From an uncultured Clostridia bacterium (GTDB taxonomy: Bacteria; Bacillota; Clostridia; Oscillospirales; Acutalibacteraceae), in contig CALWJA010000040.1 of NCBI GenBank assembly GCA_944380875.1, positions 1-64,000 of the forward strand: 64,000 bases of DNA, in the 5' to 3' direction. The position numbers were made by a program, and so were the translations under genes. The notes beneath the pieces were generated by a model. The model was not told the DNA's origin. It searched no databases and saw only the letters and a list, made by a program, of their open reading frames with translations. Every line of letters starts with the position of its first letter. Positions within the stretch are counted from its first letter, which is position 1. Shown in pieces: positions 10,915 to 21,447 of this stretch.

Positions 10915-11298
10915 ATGAAAATTTTGTGGCAGCTTTGTTTTTTGTTTGCTCTCTGCTTTATTGGCGATATAGCGTCTTTTCTCTTGCCGTTCCCGTTCCC
11001 TTCCAGTGTTATCAGCCTTTTGATTCTGCTGTTACTGCTGTGCACACGTGTTGTGAAGCCGGAGCAGATTCGGGAAAGCTCGGAGTTTCTCCTTAAAAAT
11101 ATGGCTTTTTTGTTTTTGCCCGCAGGGGTTCAGGTGATGGAGCAGTTTTCTGTCATACAGTCCCAGATACCGGTTCTTCTTTTTATTGTTGCGGTAACGC
11201 TGGTGCTAACTTTCTTAGCCTCCGCCTTCACCGTTACAATTGTGATCCGTTGGATGGAAAAGAGAGAAAAAGGGGGAAAACCGGATGGAAGACTTTAA
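10915..11298 (+). CDS. CidA/LrgA family holin-like protein
   Basis: A 127-residue membrane protein with four predicted helices and a basic C-terminal tail (MEKREKGGKP). LrgA/CidA proteins pair with LrgB/CidB; classically described as holin-like controllers of murein hydrolases, and more recently linked to pyruvate or by-product transport. Helix one contains ALCFIGDIASFLLPFPFP, with the conserved PFPSS turn to helix two. GGGG lies 10 nt before the ATG. The gene overlaps the next by 14 nt. Confidence 0.85.
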   Translation: MKILWQLCFLFALCFIGDIASFLLPFPFPSSVISLLILLLLLCTRVVKPEQIRESSEFLLKNMAFLFLPAGVQVMEQFSVIQSQIPVLLFIVAVTLVLTFLASAFTVTIVIRWMEKREKGGKPDGRL

Positions 11299-11983
11299 AG
11301 AATTTATGGAGACCATGCTGCAATCTCCTATGTTTGGTATCTTGCTGAGCCTTTTGGCTTTTGGAATAGGCGTGTTTTGCAATCGTGTTTTTAAGTCTCC
11401 TATTGTAAACCCTCTGCTGGTTGGAATCTCTTTGGTAATTATTTTTCTTTCTGTAACGAAAATACCTCTCGAATATTACGAAACAGGCGGGGATATTATT
11501 TCTTTGTTTCTGGCGCCGGCAACTACGGTATTGGCATACTCCATATACAGGCAGATTGCACTGTTAAAAAAATATTTCCTTCCAGTGTGTTTGGGATGCT
11601 TGGTGGGCTCCTGCGTTTCGGTAGCCAGTGTAATAGGTCTTTGCAGATTGTTTCATGTGGAAGAAAAGCTTACGGCTACCATGATCCCGAAATCTGTTAC
11701 TACTCCTATCGCCATGGAAGTAAGCCGGTCTTTAGGCGGGATGCCTTCCGTAACGGTTGCGGCGGTTGTGGTGACGGGGATCCTTGGCGCGATTCTTTGC
11801 CCTGTTCTTATACGGGTGTTTAAAATTAAAAATCCTATAGCCGCAGGAGTAGGGATTGGCACCTCCAGCCACGCGATGGGAACCAGCAAAGCGGTGGAAT
11901 TAGGAGAAATAGAGGGAGCTATGAGCGGAATTTCCATTGGTGTAGCAGGAATCCTTACGGTTCTGATTTCTATGTTTTTATAA
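11285..11983 (+). CDS. LrgB/CidB family membrane protein
   Basis: A 232-residue membrane protein with about seven helices and the family hallmarks: NPLLVGISLVI near residue 40, LAPATTVLAYSIY, the signature MIPKSVTTPIAMEVS, and GIGTSSHAMGTSKAVELGE near the C terminus. It overlaps the lrgA-like gene by 14 nt, so the pair is co-translated. No LytSR-type regulator is visible in the window. Whether this pair acts in lysis control or pyruvate transport cannot be read from sequence. Confidence 0.9.
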   Translation: MEDFKEFMETMLQSPMFGILLSLLAFGIGVFCNRVFKSPIVNPLLVGISLVIIFLSVTKIPLEYYETGGDIISLFLAPATTVLAYSIYRQIALLKKYFLPVCLGCLVGSCVSVASVIGLCRLFHVEEKLTATMIPKSVTTPIAMEVSRSLGGMPSVTVAAVVVTGILGAILCPVLIRVFKIKNPIAAGVGIGTSSHAMGTSKAVELGEIEGAMSGISIGVAGILTVLISMFL

Positions 11984-12021: not shown

Positions 12022-12050
12022 TTGTGAAATGTAACATTTGGTGGTATACT
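12022..12050 (+). promoter_or_regulatory. Promoter of the hydE-nif-like operon leader
   Basis: TTGTGA (12022-12027), a 17-nt spacer and TATACT (12045-12050). Transcription should start near 12057, giving a leader of about 370 nt before hydE. Confidence 0.65.
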
Positions 12051-12056
12051 CTATAT

Positions 12057-12368
12057 GCTTTCTTTTTTGCAAAGTGTTTCCAGATAAACAGATAACATGC
12101 AAGTAAAAAAAGAAATTTGTTAAAAAGGCAACCTGAATGGATTTTTCGGACAGGAAGCCTTAAACCACAAAGTATGCCTAAAAGGCCGGAATAATCCGCT
12201 TTTGTAAGGTATAGAAAATAGAAAATATGTATTTTCGTGCTGAATTGACGATGATCCGTTCGGAGTCAGAAGACGGGAAGAGAGAATCTGCGGCCGTATT
12301 TACAGCGGTCCGCGTGTTTCTGTATGGCTTTGTGAGCCCTTTCGTCGTTTCGGCGAAAGGGCTTTTTT
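12057..12368 (+). ncRNA. Structured leader RNA / candidate riboswitch ending in a terminator
   Basis: The leader holds several hairpins: GGC-CCTG with CAGG-GCC (12127-12159), then two abutting mini-hairpins GCCT-AAA-AGGC (12176-12186) and CGGA-ATAA-TCCG (12187-12198), a GC-rich region around 12282-12315, and finally an intrinsic terminator (12335-12368) 60 nt before hydE. The layout fits a riboswitch or attenuator that decides readthrough into the operon. I could not match it to a class I know; a GGAGTCAGAAGAC segment (12260-12272) recalls the 3' part of cobalamin riboswitches, but the B12 box is absent. Confidence 0.45.
12335..12368 (+). terminator. Intrinsic terminator in the hydE leader
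   Basis: AGCCCTTTCG (12335-12344) pairs with CGAAAGGGCT (12354-12363), followed by T6. It lies upstream of hydE and downstream of a plausible promoter, so it is likely conditional. Confidence 0.85.
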
Positions 12369-12428
12369 GTTATGGTTGGGCGCATTTTTAGAAACAAGGT
12401 GTCCACGGATTCGGGAAGGTGAGTAAAG

Positions 12429-13487
12429 ATGCAGGAAAATAGAATACGGATTGACTCCCTTGAAAAATACGGGGTGATTCCCAGAGAAGAATTGATCTCA
12501 TTACTTTCCTCTTATGACGATGAAGACAGGGCTTATGCGGCTCAAAAAGCCCGGGCTATTTCCCTTCGGCATTTTGGAAATAAGGTATATTTTCGCGGTT
12601 TGATCGAAATTTCCAATTACTGTAAAAATGATTGCTATTACTGTGGCATTCGGAAAAGCAACAAAAACGCCTGCCGATACCGTTTAACACCGGAAGAGAT
12701 CCTTACCTGTTGCCGCTATGGATACGAAGCGGGGTTCCGGACTTTTGTGCTGCAGGGAGGAGAAGATCTTTGGTGGACGGACGAACGGGTGGCCGCCCTT
12801 GTTTCACAAATCAAGGAAAACTATCCGGATTGTGCCGTGACACTTTCCTTGGGGGAAAAAGATACGGAATCCTATCGCCGTTTGTTTGCTGCGGGGGCGG
12901 ACCGGTATCTTCTCCGCCATGAAACGGCGGATCAAACTCATTACGGAAAGCTGCATCCCCCGGAACTTTCCCTAAAAAACAGAAAGCGATGTCTAGAAGA
13001 TTTAATCGAGATCGGATATCAAACGGGCTGCGGGTGTATGGTCGGCTCTCCTTATCAGACCTGCGCGAATCTGGCTGATGACCTTTTGTATATGAAAAAG
13101 CTTCATCCCCAGATGATTGGAATTGGGCCATTTATTCCCCATAAGGATACGCCTTTCCGGGATTTTCCTGCGGGAAAACTGGAAGATACTCTTTTTCTTT
13201 TGAGCCTCATACGCATTATGCATCCCCATGTATTGCTTCCCGCAACGACGGCCTTGGGAACGATCCAGCCGGATGGACGGGAACAGGGAATTTTGGCGGG
13301 CGCCAACGTGGTGATGCCGAATATTTCCCCCGAAGAGGCAAGAAAGCGGTATCTTCTCTATGACAGAAAAGTGGACGCAGGAGCAGACGCGTTGAAAAAC
13401 CAGATGCTTTTGCAGGAACGGATAGAAGCCATCGGTTATGAGGTTGTAGTGAGCCGGGGCGATTACAAGGAGGAAACAGAACAATGA
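12429..13487 (+). CDS. hydE: Radical SAM maturase HydE
   Basis: HydE-type radical S-adenosylmethionine enzyme, known to process the HydG-made iron-cysteine complex during assembly of the [FeFe]-hydrogenase H-cluster. The 352-residue protein has the cluster-binding CKNDCYYC (Cys65, Cys69, Cys72), preceded by [14 protein letters not shown], then [25 protein letters not shown], and [12 protein letters not shown], all characteristic of HydE rather than BioB or PylB. AAGGTG precedes the ATG. Its end overlaps the next start by 4 nt. It heads an operon of nitrogenase-like and ABC importer genes, with hydF near the end; hydG and a hydrogenase are not in the window. Its true client here is open. Confidence 0.9.
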
Positions 13488-14263
13488 TTAAAATAGCTGT
13501 ATATGGCAAAGGCGGCATAGGAAAATCCACTACAGTATCCAACCTTTCGGTAGCGTTTGCCCAGAAAGGACTCAAGGTTATGCAGATTGGCTGCGATCCT
13601 AAAGCGGATTCCACCGTATATCTGCATGGCGGAAAGCCGGTAGAAACGGTTTTGAGCCTTATTCGCAGAAAAGGAAAACAGGCAGAGCTTTCGGAACTGG
13701 TTACGGAAGGCTTTGGAGGGGTTTTGTGCGTGGAAGCGGGAGGCCCCACCCCGGGAATGGGGTGCGCAGGGCGCGGAATTATCGCGGCATTGGAAATGCT
13801 GGAAGAAAAGAATGCGTTTGAAATATTCAAACCGGATGTGGTTTTGTATGACGTTTTGGGCGATGTGGTCTGCGGTGGTTTTGCCATGCCCATCCGGGAA
13901 GGATACGCTGAAAAGGTGTTTGTAATAACATCCGGGGAAAATATGGCGATCCACGCGGCCGCGAATATTGCTATGGCGGTGGATAACTTTGCCGACCGGG
14001 GGTATGCATCCTTGGGAGGAATTATTCTCAACCGCCGTAATGTGGATAGAGAAGAAGAAAAGGTAGAGGAACTGGCCCAGGATATCCATTCGAAAATTGT
14101 AGGCGCTCTTCCTTTCAGCCCGATTGTGCAAAAGGCGGATGAACTGCAGAAAACGGTCCTGGAAGCTTTTCCAGATAGTGAAATGGCCGAGGAATATAGG
14201 AAACTTGCCGATCAGGTGCTCAAAGCCTGCCAAGAGCCCGGAGGGGAGGATGTTAAACCGTGA
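13484..14263 (+). CDS. Nitrogenase iron protein (NifH)-like reductase
   Basis: Homodimeric ATPase of the NifH/BchL/CfbC type that feeds electrons one at a time to a NifDK-like partner. The 259-residue protein has the P-loop GKGGIGKST (residues 8-16), switch I DPKADST, and both [4Fe-4S] ligands: Cys94 in GMGCAGRGI and Cys130 in [14 protein letters not shown]. All parts needed for an ATP-driven reductase are present. Four-nt overlaps link it to hydE and to the NifD-like gene. It is divergent from true NifH in length and in the C-terminal part, so a nitrogen-fixing role is unlikely; chlorophyll genes are absent too. Confidence 0.9.
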
Positions 14264-15597
14264 TCGATCTGAGAAGCGCAGAAATATTGGATTGGAGCGG
14301 CGCCTGCGTATCCATCCGAGAAGCACAATTTCCTTCCCCTTTTCAGTCGGGGGTTGAATATGCGGCGCCTGCCCGGGGGCCGTGGAATATCGTTCATGTG
14401 GGAATGCTTGTTCCTGAAAGCCACCAGATTTTTGTCTGCGCCCAAGGCTGCCTGCGGGGTGTGGTTCTTACCGCCGCAGAAATGGGAGCTACCGATCGGT
14501 TTTCTACCATAGCCGTTCGGGAAAATAATGTGATGGAAGGGGATATGGAGGAACTGATCTTAAACGGGGTAGAGGATGTTCTTCGTAAGCTTCCCAAAAA
14601 ACCAAGGGCAGTTCTTCTGTTTACCAGCTGTATCCATCATTTTATAGGCTGTGATTTGGATTATGTATATAGGAAGCTGCGGGAACGCTTTCCTGATGTG
14701 GATTTTACCGATTGCTATATGAATCCCATTATGCGGAAAAGCAAAACCCCGCCGGACAGCAAGATGCGGCAACAGCTGTATAGCTTGCTGCATCCTACGG
14801 ATAAAACGGCAAAAGCTGTAAATTTTCTGGGGAATACAACTGAGACCAGCGAAACAAGCGAAATGGTGCAAATGATCCGGCAGGCCGGATATGAAATACG
14901 GGATATATGCGCTTGCCACACCTATGACGAATTTCAGAAAATGGCGGAAAGCATCCTGAATATTACGTATAATCCGGCTGCTAAACTGGGAGGGGAGACC
15001 CTGGAAAAAAGGCTTGGAAAAAAGCACTTGTATCTTCCTTTCAGCTACAATGGCCAGGAGATTGAAAGGGCTCTTACCCAATTGGCGGGAGCTATAGACG
15101 CACCCCTTCCGGATTTTGATCTTTTAAAAGAAAAAGCGGAAAAGGCTCTTAGGGAAACAGCCCAAGCCCTGCAGGATATGGAAATCGCGATCGATTATAC
15201 GGCGACCCTTCGTCCGTTAGGATTGGCAAGGCTTTTGCTCAGCCATGGTTTCCGTGTTAGCTCTGTATATGCGGATAGTTTCATCTCGGAAGAAAAAGAA
15301 GATTTCCTCTGGCTGCAGGAAAACTATGGGGATTTAAAGCTTTACGCTACGGTGCATCCCAAGATGCCCCGTTTTCCCAGGGACAGAGCGGAGAAATCCC
15401 ACGGAAATCTGTTGGCAATAGGGCAGAAAGCGGCTTATTTTACAGGAACCCGGCATTTTGTCAATTTGCTGGAGGGCAGCGGACTTTATGGCTATGACGG
15501 GATCTGCCGCCTTATGCAAATGATGCTCCAAAGCGCTCGGGAAGAGAAGGATACGGAAAAAATTATTCAAGTTAAGGGATGGGGGTGCTGCGGATGA
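14260..15597 (+). CDS. Nitrogenase component 1-like protein, NifD-type subunit
   Basis: A 445-residue protein of the NifD/NifE/BchN oxidoreductase superfamily. Cysteines sit where P-cluster-type ligands occur: Cys16 (SGACVSIRE), Cys60 and Cys64 ([11 protein letters not shown]), and Cys124 and Cys131 in [12 protein letters not shown], the equivalent of the NifD third ligand. I see no counterpart of the FeMo-cofactor cysteine (NifD Cys275): the matching region [11 protein letters not shown] has none. The C terminus ends KGWGCCG. This suggests an electron-relay cluster but a different or no cofactor. The start overlaps the NifH-like gene by 4 nt. Substrate unknown. Confidence 0.82.
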
Positions 15598-16787
15598 AAC
15601 AGGTTTGCAGTGTGCTTTCCACATATACGGCGGATGTATCCGGTGTGTGTTCAGCCCTCTATGAAATGGGGGGCATGACGATCATGCATGATGCTTCCGG
15701 ATGCAATTCCACCTACAATACCCACGATGAACCCAGATGGTATCATACGCCCAGCATGGTGTATATTTCTGCCTTATCGGAAATGGAAGCCGTCTTGGGG
15801 GATGAACATAAGCTGATCGAAGATGTCTGCCGGGCCGCGGAGGAATTGCATCCCCGCTTTATTGCTTTGGCGGGAACACCGATTCCCATGATGATGGGAA
15901 CGGATTTTCAGGGGATTGCCCGGGCTATAGAAAGAAAAACGGGGATCCCGGCTTTCGGATTTGCCACGAACGGCATGCATTCATATATATCGGGGGTTTC
16001 CATGGCCTTGGAAAAGGTGGCGGAGCGGTTCTGCGATCCTTCTATCCGGCCGGAGCTGTGGAAGCCAGGAGAAAAAATATCCGTGAACCTTCTGGGGGTT
16101 ACGCCTTTGGATTTCTCCGTTACCGGGAATCTGGAAGTTTTGGAAACCCTTTGCGAAGAGCAAGGATTCCGGGTGCAAAGCTGCTGGGCTATGGGGAGTT
16201 CCTGGGAAGAGCTTATGGAGTGCGGAAAGGCACAGGTGAACTGGGTGCTTTCTTCCGCGGGGCTCAGCCTTGCAAAATTGCTGCAGGCGCGGTATGGAAC
16301 GCCATATGTTCTGGGCATTCCCATGGGAAAGGATCTTACAGAAAAGCTCTTTGAAGAGCTGCGCCAGGCTGCAGCATCTGGAGAGACTCCCGCTTTTCTT
16401 TGCCGGGAAGAGGAAGAAACGGAAGGAGAAGGAAAGCCTTCCTATATTATTGGAGAACCCATTTGGGCGGCTTCTTTGCGGTATGCTTTAAAACATACCC
16501 AGGGAATGAAAAATTTGCATATTTTAACACCCTTGGAGGGAGATGCATCGCTTCTGCAAAAGGGGGATCTGGCAAATGCAGAAGAAGACGATTGTTTTGC
16601 CTGTTTCCCCAAAGCGGAATACATTTTTGGGGATCCTCTCTATCAATGGGCAATTCCCAAAGACAGCGGGGCAAAACTGATACGGCTTCCCCATGAAGGC
16701 TGTTCAGGGCGGATGTTCCGGGGAGAAATCCCTGTTTTGATAGGACATTATTTTGAAAACTGGTTTTATAAGGAGATGCAGAAATGA
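15594..16787 (+). CDS. Nitrogenase component 1-like protein, NifK-type subunit
   Basis: A 397-residue partner of the preceding protein. Near the N terminus are Cys5 (KQVCSVLST), Cys19 (SGVCSALYE) and Cys37 (HDASGCNSTYNTHDE), matching the early cluster ligands of the family. The position of the third NifK-type ligand carries threonine (ALAGTPIPMMMGTDF, Thr95) instead of Cys. ATG at 15594 overlaps the NifD-like stop as ATGA and has GGGGGTG upstream; an ATG at 15579 in frame is an alternative. Later conserved-looking segments are VLSSAGLSLAKLL and GEPIWAASL. It probably forms a heterotetramer with the NifD-like subunit and is served by the NifH-like protein (inference). Confidence 0.8.
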   Translation: MKQVCSVLSTYTADVSGVCSALYEMGGMTIMHDASGCNSTYNTHDEPRWYHTPSMVYISALSEMEAVLGDEHKLIEDVCRAAEELHPRFIALAGTPIPMMMGTDFQGIARAIERKTGIPAFGFATNGMHSYISGVSMALEKVAERFCDPSIRPELWKPGEKISVNLLGVTPLDFSVTGNLEVLETLCEEQGFRVQSCWAMGSSWEELMECGKAQVNWVLSSAGLSLAKLLQARYGTPYVLGIPMGKDLTEKLFEELRQAAASGETPAFLCREEEETEGEGKPSYIIGEPIWAASLRYALKHTQGMKNLHILTPLEGDASLLQKGDLANAEEDDCFACFPKAEYIFGDPLYQWAIPKDSGAKLIRLPHEGCSGRMFRGEIPVLIGHYFENWFYKEMQK

Positions 16788-17971
16788 AACGGAGATTAAT
16801 GGCTATGCTGCTTGCAGCGGCAATGTGTTTCACCATGTTGGGTGGGTGCGCCTCTGGGAACGATTCTTCCCAAAGCGGAGAAAATACAGATTCTTCCCAG
16901 AGCACACAGAGCTCTCCAAACGAAGCTTCCAATGAGGAAGAAAAAGACACCATAACCGTAGTGGATCACGGCGGCTATACCGTAGAGGTTCCTAAACAAA
17001 TCGACCGTGTGGCCGTTGTGGGCATTTTGCCCTTCCCCTCTGTAATCGCTATGTATCTGGGATCCGCGGAAAAACTGGTTGGAATTCCCCCAGCAGCCAA
17101 AAGCGCGGCGGAGATCGGGCTTTTAGGGGAGATTTTCCCGGAGATTCTCAATGCGGAAACGGGATACACAAACGGAAGCGACCTGAATATCGAAGAACTG
17201 ATGAATCTGGATCCCGATGTGGTTTTCTATCTTGCTGGAAACGATGAATGGAAAACCGCTATGGACAGCGCAGGAATTCCCTGCATAGGTGTATCCACCA
17301 GCAAATGGGATTATGATGTTTTGGAAACCTATGACCAGTGGATTGATCTTCTGAGCCAGGTGTTCCCGGAAGAGAACAAAAGCAAGGAAGTTTCCGAATA
17401 CAGCCAGGAAATATACGATAAGATTCAGGAAAGAGTGAGCGGCCTTTCGGAGGATGAGAAAAAAGAAATCCTTTTCCTGTATCAATATGACGACAGCCAG
17501 ATTGTTACTTCCGGCAAGCATTTCTTCGGCCAATTCTGGGCAGATGCTGTGGGCGGAAAAAATGCGGCAGAAGAGATCCAAGCAGATAATTCCAATGCTG
17601 TTATCAATATGGAGCAGATTTATGCTTGGGATCCGGATGTAGTGTTTATAACGAATTTCACTTCCGCAATGCCGGATGATCTGTATAACGGTTCTTTGGG
17701 CAATGACTGGAGCAGTGTCCAGGCGGTAAAAGATGAGGCAGTATATAAGATGCCTCTGGGCTCTTACAGAAGCTTCACGCCCGGAACCGATACGCCTGTC
17801 ACCTTGCTTTGGATGGCGCAGAAAACATATCCCGACCTTTTCTCGGATATTGACCTTGCCCAGGAAGTAAAGGATTATTACAAGGAGATTTACGGCGTGG
17901 AATTGACGGATGAACAGGTGGAGCGGATGTATAATCCTGAGGCACATGATGCAGAAGGCTTGCTAAGATAA
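16784..17971 (+). CDS. ABC importer substrate-binding lipoprotein (BtuF/FepB fold)
   Basis: Extracytoplasmic solute-binding lipoprotein of the PF01497 family, which captures ferric siderophores, heme or corrinoids. A signal peptide with lipobox LGGC (Cys23) is followed by a Ser/Asn/Glu-rich linker to about residue 50, then the domain starts TVVDHGGYTVEVPKQIDRVA. Typical features are NIEELMNLDPDVVFYLAG and the second-lobe DPDVVFITNF. It overlaps the NifK-like gene by 4 nt, which ties transport to the nitrogenase-like enzyme. The ligand cannot be told from sequence; candidates are a metal complex needed for cofactor assembly or the enzyme substrate. Confidence 0.88.
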   Translation: MKRRLMAMLLAAAMCFTMLGGCASGNDSSQSGENTDSSQSTQSSPNEASNEEEKDTITVVDHGGYTVEVPKQIDRVAVVGILPFPSVIAMYLGSAEKLVGIPPAAKSAAEIGLLGEIFPEILNAETGYTNGSDLNIEELMNLDPDVVFYLAGNDEWKTAMDSAGIPCIGVSTSKWDYDVLETYDQWIDLLSQVFPEENKSKEVSEYSQEIYDKIQERVSGLSEDEKKEILFLYQYDDSQIVTSGKHFFGQFWADAVGGKNAAEEIQADNSNAVINMEQIYAWDPDVVFITNFTSAMPDDLYNGSLGNDWSSVQAVKDEAVYKMPLGSYRSFTPGTDTPVTLLWMAQKTYPDLFSDIDLAQEVKDYYKEIYGVELTDEQVERMYNPEAHDAEGLLR

Positions 17972-17999
17972 ATCTTTTTTGGTAGGTTGTGATGGAAAA

Positions 18000-19091
18000 A
18001 TGACAAGGCAGAGGCGTAAAGCGCCGGTTCCGGCAGGAGAAAGCACAGCGGATCTTGTAAAAGGCCGCGATATGCAGAAAAGAGCGAGTAGAATACACCG
18101 TCTATGGGCCATTGGTATAATAGCGGCCATATTGGTGCTTTCTGCGGCGGCTGTTACGATGGGACGTTTTCATATAGGATTCAGGGAGTTTTTTGCAGCT
18201 TTGGTTCCGGGCTTGTTTCCGGATGTGGAGGTGCCGGAGGCTGCCCGCAATGTTATCTTTAATATACGGCTTCCCAGAATTGGGCTGGCGCTTTTAGCGG
18301 GCGCAGGCCTTAGCGTATCGGGAGGGGCCTTTCAGGCATTGTTCTCCAATCCTCTGGCTACTCCGGATACGCTGGGAGTAGCCACGGGAGCTTCCTTTGG
18401 AGCTGTTTTGGGCATTCTTTTTGGCCTTCCTTCCGTATTGGTGCAGGTTTTTGCTTTGCTGGCCGGCCTTTTGGCGGTTATTTTAGTTTATACGGTAGGC
18501 AGAGTAAAGGGCGGTTCTCCCATGATTATGCTTATTTTAGCCGGCATGGTTATCAGCGCTTTGTTTTCGGCCTTGGTTTCTTTAGTCAAATATACGGCGG
18601 ATCCCCAGGATGTGCTTCCGGCAATTACTTTTTGGCTGATGGGGAGCTTATCGGGAACTACAAGTGAAACCCTTCTGATTGGCGCCCCCTTTATTCTGCT
18701 GGGAATGCTTTTGATCTATATTCTGCGCTGGAAGCTCAACGCTATGTCTCTTTCGGAAGAAGAAGCAGTATCTTTAGGAATACCGGTTAAAAAAATTCGG
18801 GCATTGGTCGTTTTGGGCTCTACCATGATAACAGCTTCGGTTGTATCTATGTGCGGTCTGATAGGCTGGGTAGGGCTTCTGATTCCCCATATCGGCAGAA
18901 TGATCTTCGGCAATAACAATACCTATGTAGTGCCCGCCAGTATGGGATTGGGTGCGATCTTTATGCTGGTTATTGATACGGTTGCCCGCTGTGTAACAGC
19001 GTCGGAGATTCCGGTGTCGATTCTGACAGCAGTGATCGGCGCACCTTTCTTTATTGCGCTTTTGCGGAAGACGGGAGGAATCCAGGTATGA
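18000..19091 (+). CDS. ABC importer permease, FecCD/BtuC family
   Basis: Membrane permease of a type II importer. After a basic N terminus come about ten helices; family motifs are GLALLAGAGLSVSGGAFQAL, NPLATPDTLGVATGASFGA, FWLMGSLSGT, and GLIGWVGLLIPHIGRMI (the segment contacting the ATPase). From the ATG at 18000 the protein has 363 residues; an in-frame ATG at 18072 would give 339, closer to the family norm, so the start is uncertain. It lies 28 nt after the binding-protein gene and overlaps the ATPase gene by 4 nt. Confidence 0.9.
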   Translation: MTRQRRKAPVPAGESTADLVKGRDMQKRASRIHRLWAIGIIAAILVLSAAAVTMGRFHIGFREFFAALVPGLFPDVEVPEAARNVIFNIRLPRIGLALLAGAGLSVSGGAFQALFSNPLATPDTLGVATGASFGAVLGILFGLPSVLVQVFALLAGLLAVILVYTVGRVKGGSPMIMLILAGMVISALFSALVSLVKYTADPQDVLPAITFWLMGSLSGTTSETLLIGAPFILLGMLLIYILRWKLNAMSLSEEEAVSLGIPVKKIRALVVLGSTMITASVVSMCGLIGWVGLLIPHIGRMIFGNNNTYVVPASMGLGAIFMLVIDTVARCVTASEIPVSILTAVIGAPFFIALLRKTGGIQV

Positions 19092-19900
19092 AATTTGAGG
19101 TTCGAGAAGGGTCTTTCCAGTATACCCATGAAAAAGAGGTGCTGAAAAAAGTCTCTTTTTCCCTGGAAGGTCCGGAGATTCTTTCCATTCTGGGCGCTAA
19201 CGGCGCAGGGAAAACGACCCTTTTAAAATGTATGCTGGGGCTTCTTCCGTGGAGCTCCGGCGCAACGTTTTTAGAAGGGACGGATATTAATAAAATCCCC
19301 AATAAGGAATTTTGGAAAAAGGTTGGGTATGTCCCCCAAGCCAAAAAGCCGTCGTTTGTATATAGTGTTCGGGAAATGGTGGTTCTGGGGCGCAACGCTT
19401 GGCTCAAAGAATGGCAAAGGCCGGGAAAAAAAGACTGGGCAAAGGTAGAAGAAGCTTTAGAGCTTCTGGGTATTTCCCATTTGCAAAACCGGCTCTGCAG
19501 CCAAATCAGCGGCGGAGAGTATCAACTTGTGCTGGTAGCCCGGGCTTTGGCGGCGGAACCTTCTCTTCTGGTTTTGGATGAACCGGAATCCAACCTGGAT
19601 TTTAAGAATCAGACGATCGTGCTGGAGGCTATCCGGCGTTTGTGCAGGGAGAAAGGAATATCGGCTATACTTAATACCCATTATCCGGAGCACGCCATAG
19701 ATATTTCACAGAAAGCGCTGCTTTTGATGCCCGACGGAGCCACCGTTTTTGGCAGCGCGGAAGAAGTTCTGCGGGAGGAATTGTTGCAGAAAGCCTTTGA
19801 TGTGCCTGTTCTGATCCGGAAAATCCAGCTGCCCGATAGAGAATATACTTGCGTGTTTCCAACGCCATCTTCTAAATCCGAAGGAGGTATAAAGCTATGA
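19088..19900 (+). CDS. ABC importer ATP-binding protein, FepC/BtuD type
   Basis: Cytoplasmic ATPase that drives the preceding permease. In 270 residues: Walker A GANGAGKTT (near residue 36), Q-loop GYVPQAKK, signature ISGGEYQLV (the usual Arg or Lys after Glu is Tyr), Walker B LLVLDEPESNLD and the switch His in LNTHYPEHA. It overlaps its neighbours by 4 nt on each side. With the lipoprotein and permease it completes an importer embedded in the nitrogenase-like operon. Confidence 0.92.
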   Translation: MKFEVREGSFQYTHEKEVLKKVSFSLEGPEILSILGANGAGKTTLLKCMLGLLPWSSGATFLEGTDINKIPNKEFWKKVGYVPQAKKPSFVYSVREMVVLGRNAWLKEWQRPGKKDWAKVEEALELLGISHLQNRLCSQISGGEYQLVLVARALAAEPSLLVLDEPESNLDFKNQTIVLEAIRRLCREKGISAILNTHYPEHAIDISQKALLLMPDGATVFGSAEEVLREELLQKAFDVPVLIRKIQLPDREYTCVFPTPSSKSEGGIKL

Positions 19901-21153
19901 ACCATACTGCACAGACTGGAAGCCTGAACAGTACCCCGTCCGGGGATCGGGTGCACATCGGCATTTTCGGAAAACGGAATGCGGGAAAATCCAGTGTTAT
20001 CAATGCCATGACAGGCCAGAGCTTATCCATTGTTTCTGATGTGAAGGGGACTACCACGGATCCGGTTCAAAAGGCAATGGAACTGCTTCCTTTGGGGCCG
20101 GTAGTGGTGATCGATACCCCAGGCATAGACGACGAAGGAGATTTGGGAAGCCTTCGTGTGCAAAAAAGTTATCAGGTCTTGAATAAGACGGATATTGCCC
20201 TTCTGGTGATAGACGGATTAGAAGGATTTTCCAAGGAAGATGCGGCCCTGGAGAAAAAGTGCATAGAGAAAAAGATCCCCTATGTGGTGGCAGCCAATAA
20301 ACTGGATCAGATACAGAAAAAAGGAGAGGAACCGTCGGCTATCCGGACGGCAGCCGGCGCTCCCGTCTTATGGGTAAGTTCCGTCACAGGTGAAAACATA
20401 TATTCCCTGAAAGAGAAAATTGCTTCATTGGTTCCGGAACAAAAACCGGAATATCCCATTGTTTCCGATCTTTTGAAGCCCGGGGATTTTGTTATTCTGG
20501 TAGTTCCCATCGATAAAGCGGCTCCGAAAGGCAGGCTGATTCTTCCCCAGCAGCAGACAATCCGGGATATTCTAGATGCGGGCGCCATAGCTGTTGTTGC
20601 ACAGGATGACCGGGTAGCCGAAACTATTGCAACCCTGCAAAAGGGAACGAGCCCCCGGCTTGTCATAACGGACAGCCAGGCTTTTGCCAGGGTATCAAAA
20701 GACACGCCTGGGGATATTCCCCTCACTTCTTTTTCTATTCTTTTTGCCAGACATAAAGGCAATCTGGAAGAATTGATACGGGGAGTGAAGGCGCTGGATT
20801 CCCTGCAGGACGGCGACACCGTGCTTATTTCGGAAGGATGCACCCATCACCGCCAGTGCGGGGATATAGGAACCGTGAAACTTCCTGCATGGATAACCCG
20901 TTATACAGGTAAAAAAGTGCAGTTTGCCTTTACCAGCGGGACGGAATTCCCCGTTGATTTATCCCCCTATAAAATGGTGATCCATTGCGGAGGCTGCATG
21001 TTAAATGAAAGGGAAATGAAGTATCGTATCCAGTGTGCAGCAGATCAGGGAGTTCCCATCGCCAATTATGGATTGGTTATCGCCCAGACCCAGGGAATCC
21101 TGAAACGAAGCCTGGAGCCTTTCCCACAGGTTGCTGCGCTTCTTGCAAAATAG
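19897..21153 (+). CDS. hydF: GTPase/scaffold maturase HydF
   Basis: HydF is the GTPase scaffold on which the [2Fe] subcluster of [FeFe]-hydrogenase is assembled before transfer to HydA. This 418-residue copy has G1 GKRNAGKSS (residues 25-33), the G2 threonines in VKGTTTDP, G3 DTPGIDD, G4 NKLD, and the iron-sulfur motif: Cys315-x-His317, 45 residues, then His363-Cys364-x-x-Cys367, exactly the HydF spacing. A GAAGGAGG site precedes the ATG. HydE and HydF thus bracket nitrogenase-like and transport genes. Whether it serves a hydrogenase elsewhere or a metal centre of this operon is open. Confidence 0.93.
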   Translation: MNHTAQTGSLNSTPSGDRVHIGIFGKRNAGKSSVINAMTGQSLSIVSDVKGTTTDPVQKAMELLPLGPVVVIDTPGIDDEGDLGSLRVQKSYQVLNKTDIALLVIDGLEGFSKEDAALEKKCIEKKIPYVVAANKLDQIQKKGEEPSAIRTAAGAPVLWVSSVTGENIYSLKEKIASLVPEQKPEYPIVSDLLKPGDFVILVVPIDKAAPKGRLILPQQQTIRDILDAGAIAVVAQDDRVAETIATLQKGTSPRLVITDSQAFARVSKDTPGDIPLTSFSILFARHKGNLEELIRGVKALDSLQDGDTVLISEGCTHHRQCGDIGTVKLPAWITRYTGKKVQFAFTSGTEFPVDLSPYKMVIHCGGCMLNEREMKYRIQCAADQGVPIANYGLVIAQTQGILKRSLEPFPQVAALLAK

Positions 21154-21183: not shown

Positions 21184-21447
21184 ATGGAAACAAAATCTCC
21201 TGGAGAGACAAGAATAGCGTTAGTGGGAATCATCGTAGAAGATATGGAACAAAGCGAAAAAATCAATCAGATCCTGCATGAATATGGAGGGTATATAATC
21301 GGAAGAATGGGAATCCCTTACAGGCAGAGGAATGTTTCTATTATCAGTATTGTATTGGATGCCCCCAATCCCATAATCAGTGCGCTTTCAGGAAAGTTGG
21401 GGATGCTTCCCGGCGTACAAACCAAGACCGTGTATTCCAAGGTGTAG
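21184..21447 (+). CDS. TM1266-family iron-only hydrogenase system regulator
   Basis: An 87-residue ACT/ferredoxin-like alpha-beta protein of the TM1266 family, which occurs beside [FeFe]-hydrogenase maturation genes and resembles the C-terminal domain of NikR. Landmarks: RIALVGIIVEDMEQSEKIN, ILHEYGGYIIGRMGIPYRQ, ISIVLDAPNPIISALSGKLG. AAAGGAG precedes the ATG. It is the last gene of the operon, 30 nt after hydF, and is followed by a terminator. Function is not established; a small-molecule sensing role is suspected from the fold. Confidence 0.88.
   Translation: METKSPGETRIALVGIIVEDMEQSEKINQILHEYGGYIIGRMGIPYRQRNVSIISIVLDAPNPIISALSGKLGMLPGVQTKTVYSKV

Follow-up and report, generated by a model that had tools for sequence, protein, structure and literature searches.

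The window, by which I mean the whole 64,000-nucleotide stretch of DNA analyzed here (contig CALWJA010000040.1 of an uncultured Clostridia bacterium), carries an operon that opens with the maturase gene hydE and runs through nitrogenase-like and importer genes to hydF, directly after which comes the gene for a TM1266-family protein (Table 1). Ahead of hydE lies a leader with a promoter-like site near one end and an intrinsic terminator near the other. Just 5' of the leader is an LrgA/LrgB-like pair of genes (10915-11983), a synteny kept in the relative G001.

Table 1. Features of the leader and of the operon it precedes, in window coordinates.
Feature	Position	Strand	Evidence
Promoter-like site, TTGTGA-17-TATACT, extended TG	12022..12050	+	Similar extended -10 in G001, G002, G148
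Copy A (likely a diverged element), AAGGC-AA-CCUG-AA-[UGGAUUUUUCG]-GA-CAGG-AA-GCCUU	12125..12161	+	Fold z -3.0
Copy B (likely a diverged element), CUGA-[AU]-UGAC-GAUG-AUCCGUU-CGGA-GUCA-GAAG	12240..12272	+	Best R1 match in the leader; BLASTN-conserved segment in the genus
Intrinsic terminator	12334..12368	+	Fold -22.7 kcal/mol, z -5.6; kept in G001, G002, G148
hydE, H-cluster radical SAM maturase	12429..13487	+	TIGR03956, 557.7 bits (cut-off 254.6)
NifH-like protein, two NifD/K/E-like proteins, Fec-type ABC importer (SBP, permease, ATPase)	13484..19900	+	Pfam, NCBIfam
hydF	19897..21153	+	TIGR03918, 566 bits (cut-off 325.55)
TM1266-family protein (iron-only hydrogenase system putative regulator), candidate element-binding protein	21184..21441	+	TIGR03959, 119.8 bits; PF21699

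The original prediction held that a promoter is followed here by a structured leader with a strong terminator before hydE, laid out like a riboswitch of no known class. The promoter-like site is present and is unremarkable taken alone, with 0.8 such sites expected in shuffled sequences, and -10 sequences of the type TGnTATRNT, read by eye, stand at the matching place in G001, G002, and G148. The leader itself (12057-12375) folds better than 100 out of 100 dinucleotide shuffles (z -3.7). Its terminator, a 14-bp stem with a loop of 3 and a run of U, ends about 60 nt upstream of the hydE start codon (ATG at 12429) and, folded alone, has a z of -5.6 (Table 1). The stretch before the hydrogenase-maturation operon is a genuine regulatory RNA leader, as was supposed. 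It lies outside the known classes as well: a scan of the window with Rfam 15 gave no family at gathering score except two tRNAs, and when the limit was relaxed to E<=10, there were only rows at the level of chance, none credible. The covariance model of the PyrR-binding leader (RF00515) scored 21.1 bits against a cut-off of 54, and a cobalamin-like 3' end (GAGTCAGAAGAC) was rejected for want of an Rfam match.

Which part of the leader matters? The prediction drew attention to its hairpins, in particular two abutting mini-hairpins at 12176-12198. These exist in the window sequence, and that much of the claim stands, but the leaders of three relatives (G001, G002, and G148) contain nothing that corresponds to them, so they are probably incidental, and I rejected them as the core. 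Conservation within the genus, as judged by BLASTN, lies elsewhere: a single block in G001 (12233-12370) and two segments in G002 (12227-12275 and 12320-12367). It is limited to a region around copy B (about 12227-12275) and to the surroundings of the terminator.

A comparison of the regions upstream of hydE at 110 loci exposed a motif whose canonical form is CUGA-N4-AAAG-loop-CUGA-N4'-AAAG, where N4 and N4' are complementary. The element is thus a covarying 4-bp helix flanked by two 2x2 GA/AA loops. When 636 kb of hydE loci were scanned strictly, 36 matches appeared in the sense orientation, the majority at hyd genes; the antisense strand and mono-shuffled sequence gave none. The scan demanded complementarity of N4 by design, so these control counts weigh more than the pairing itself. 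Covariation was judged over 31 instances, in which 95.7% of the cells are paired, with 70 double changes; none of 500 shuffles reached so high a value, and slid versions fell far lower. The result repeats, with 62 double changes, in 28 class-wide matches that were found by a covariance model of the element (R1) and not by the strict scan. R1 finds matches in 55 of 291 genomes across the class at E<=0.02. I judged several of its matches false (G126, G124, G119:C12, G114:56223, G020:C13, G193:C13, and G539), because their positions seem to be within coding sequence. Rfam has nothing at the element in 20 loci, most of them with canonical copies: the scan returned tRNA only, with nothing at gathering score at the element, and further scans gave only weak chance matches. 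In homologous leaders compared for covarying stems, then, the core is kept with covariation upstream of related operons, and the idea of a conserved leader RNA survives a comparison that might have ended it.

Then there is the matter of which genes the element accompanies. Across the class Clostridia, it lies upstream of genes for biosynthesis of the H-cluster: those for the TM1266-family "regulator", hydE, hydG, hydF, and aspA, as well as further operons of the type found in the window. Among the best 30 class-wide R1 loci, 28 adjoin TM1266, hydE, hydG, or hydF; one more precedes aspA, and the last is a chance match within a coding sequence. It had been suggested that the ligand might be a corrinoid, molybdate, or the compound brought in by the importer. 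I found no evidence for any of these; the element tracks the H-cluster genes instead. The existence of the element, its covariation, and its association with these genes were all computed directly.

Two positions recur. In one, the element sits in a leader ahead of TM1266, hydE, hydF, or aspA, and an intrinsic terminator usually comes after it; in the other, it abuts the ribosome-binding site of hydG. Two individual cases may be recorded. In L226, the gene for aspartate ammonia-lyase (aspA), which has been linked to synthesis of an H-cluster ligand (PMC11736057), has upstream of it a canonical element that comes with a terminator of its own. In G067 (L196, minus strand, G067:C50:16591-16636), a copy covers the start codon of the gene for the importer's substrate-binding protein, together with its ribosome site.

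The element goes together with TM1266 at the level of genomes as well. Among 200 genomes of the family, R1 matches with E<0.05 occur in 39 of the 95 with TM1266 and in 2 of the 105 without it (Fisher 5e-13), and in both of the latter the match is inside a coding sequence. Of 29 loci, only L115 has the element with no TM1266 nearby, and its genome is one of eight element-bearing genomes tested separately, all of which encode the protein. In short, TM1266 is encoded by every checked genome that has a credible element. The converse does not hold: at 21 of 80 hydE loci, TM1266 is present with no R1 match. Several leaders of TM1266 that lack a match (L041, L107, L043, L046, and L074) carry look-alikes with longer loops or an inner loop GAGGG...CCCGA, and these are possibly variants of the element.

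How might such an element act? A terminator could be detected in 41 leaders, and there the 3' strand of the element is able to form a duplex with the 5' arm of its own terminator (mean -12.5 kcal/mol). When the partners are permuted, the value is -9.25 +/- 0.39 kcal/mol, and none of 20,000 permutations was as good. This computed pairing with its own terminator supports an antiterminator that competes with the element, and hence an OFF state when the element is stabilized. At hydG, the element abuts the ribosome site, no more than 20 nt from the start codon, in all 13 loci inspected. I infer the direction of control from these two arrangements, the terminator pairing and the abutment at hydG, which together suggest an OFF switch.

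The symmetry of the element might tempt one to see in it a site on DNA for a transcription factor and no RNA structure at all, and the inverted N4/N4' arms could indeed look like an operator. The rest of the evidence goes the other way. The strict scan has no match on the antisense strand; the helix includes G-U pairs; the flanks are direct repeats (CUGA...CUGA and AAAG...AAAG); the element pairs with the arm of a terminator; and it is found inside operons, beside the ribosome site of hydG. All this speaks for RNA rather than DNA, and I consider an operator scarcely credible.

What of the window itself? Copy A folds into a stem, a 2x2 loop, 4 bp, a second 2x2 loop, and a hairpin, with an outer loop of AA/AA. 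Its counterpart in G001 is near canonical (GCGA-CCUG-AAAG-GAAUUUU-CUGA-CGGG-AAAC), and there is a counterpart in G148 too. Copy B has the same core as the canonical element with an insertion of 2 nt after CUGA, and so both A and the core of B show a 4-bp helix between two 2x2 loops. B lies 61 nt upstream of the terminator, within the range of canonical leaders, with hydE next. To R1, both are weak (7.4 bits for B and 4.4 bits for A, against up to 16 bits for background matches across the 64 kb). A relaxed scan, which was drawn up once A and B had been seen and which tolerates a 2-nt insertion, makes B the best match in the leader (score 13, with P about 0.003 against shuffled sequence; about 0.3% of leaders reach 13 or more once shuffled). 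In the leaders of G000, G001, and G148 (three out of four), the two best-placed matches are A and B; in the leader of G002, the scan recovers only B. The occurrences of B in three species of one genus are not independent instances.

It could be, then, that the element is real elsewhere and that A and B are chance look-alikes, in a leader run by its terminator and some unrelated mechanism. The low R1 scores would be expected of such look-alikes, as would the absence of A from G002 and the behavior of the antiterminator: in the window, G001, G002, and G148, the pairing is no better than in swapped controls, and a canonical antiterminator in this clade is not supported. But chance would have to place A and B as the best two matches in three of four leaders, set B at a canonical distance from the terminator, and bring A close to the canonical form in G001. 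It would have to do this, moreover, in just that type of operon which elsewhere has canonical copies at 32-42 bits (n=7: G067, G354, G332, G244, G352, L045, and L051). I regard the look-alike explanation as improbable. That A and B are diverged copies of the element is likely rather than proven, given the low scores, the post hoc nature of the relaxed scan, and the unsupported antiterminator in the clade; the case is made by the relatives, the position, the architecture, and the type of operon.

I propose that the window leader is a cis-regulatory attenuator whose working part would be the twin tandem-GA hairpin, in copies A and B before the terminator. In canonical leaders, N4'-AAAG and the bases that follow can pair with the terminator's 5' arm; an element left unstabilized would thus permit antitermination, and a stabilized one would leave the terminator free to form. 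At the hydG ribosome-binding site, stabilization would block initiation. The most likely stabilizer would be the operon's own TM1266-family protein, a free-standing sensor of the NikR-C/ACT-like kind, whose binding would close a feedback loop on H-cluster biosynthesis. On this proposal as a whole, with its two diverged copies, TM1266, and feedback, I am about evenly divided. From the patterns above I infer that stabilization means OFF, that TM1266 binds the element, what the signal is, and that the window copies switch in the same manner.

The choice of TM1266 comes from co-occurrence and from fold. The protein is a free-standing beta-alpha-beta-beta-alpha-beta domain, and the structure predicted for it resembles 2nzc (Z 15.2) as well as the C-terminal, metal-sensing domain of NikR (Z up to 13.4). 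It differs from NikR in lacking the ribbon-helix-helix domain by which DNA would be bound, and a sensor fold with no DNA-binding part makes an RNA-binding feedback regulator an attractive reading. A search of folds for an RNA-binding relative returned 2nzc and NikR-C as the best; RNA binders appeared only among the lower ferredoxin-like rows, e.g. ribosomal protein S6, and likeness of that sort shows no function. TM1266 stands as the candidate binder of the element.

The attenuators of Bacillota that depend on proteins (the PyrR, HutP, and TRAP leaders) combine a leader terminator with an alternative pairing, a small sensor protein, and several sites per regulon. The element leaders share the terminator and alternative pairing, the several sites, and, in TM1266, a candidate for the small sensor; they differ in that the RNA is another one and TM1266 is only a putative RNA binder. 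Some small riboswitches use both termination and occlusion of the ribosome site, and these the element resembles in its compact conserved core, its two platforms, and its single-pathway regulon, although it forms a linear hairpin whose two 2x2 loops are symmetric and has no match in Rfam. CUGA and the tandem G-A pairs recall kink-turn RNA of the box C/D type, but there is no 3-nt bulge on one strand, and in the fold of copy A the 2x2 loops are symmetric.

The riboswitch must be weighed with some care. The element might be an aptamer for a precursor or product of the H-cluster, for iron, or for another metabolite of the pathway, with TM1266 co-occurring merely as a member of the same pathway. 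Two expression platforms on one conserved core make the classic layout of a riboswitch, and the genes under control form a single pathway. The core is very small (about 30 nt) and its pattern nearly two-fold symmetric, and TM1266 accompanies the credible element in every genome checked; neither point is decisive against an aptamer, which I hold to be a possible explanation, nearly as likely as feedback through TM1266 though not the favored one. Its more specific form, a new class of riboswitch that has an organometallic H-cluster intermediate or iron as its direct ligand, shuts down synthesis of the [FeFe]-hydrogenase cofactor, and stands in tandem in the window operon, is somewhat more doubtful. 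Of the riboswitch layout first predicted, the structured leader with its terminator stands; the constancy of TM1266 makes a protein-dependent attenuator at least as likely.

The operon downstream has peculiarities of its own. In the window's genome, no protein scores above the family cut-off for HydG, and the same is true of 15 of the 19 family genomes that have the window's NifK-like protein; 12 of those 15 encode a full [FeFe]-hydrogenase, HydA. The observation takes in the window (12429-21153) and G000, G001, G002, G148, G067, G071, G189, G244, G354, G327, G374, and G416. The nitrogenase-like operon may provide what is normally the product of HydG. Several relatives (L194, L197, and L201) have two NifH/D/K-like sets or extra NifD/K-like genes beside TM1266.

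No RNA-level control of H-cluster biosynthesis was found in Rfam or in the searchable open-access literature, and, judged against these, the results point to an undescribed switch for assembly of the active site of [FeFe]-hydrogenase. The regulon that it marks out is compact and testable, and comprises TM1266, hydE, hydG, hydF, aspA, and the nitrogenase-like operons. The element suggests a possible role for TM1266, until now an orphan "regulator", and it could serve as a handle by which to tune the biological production of hydrogen.
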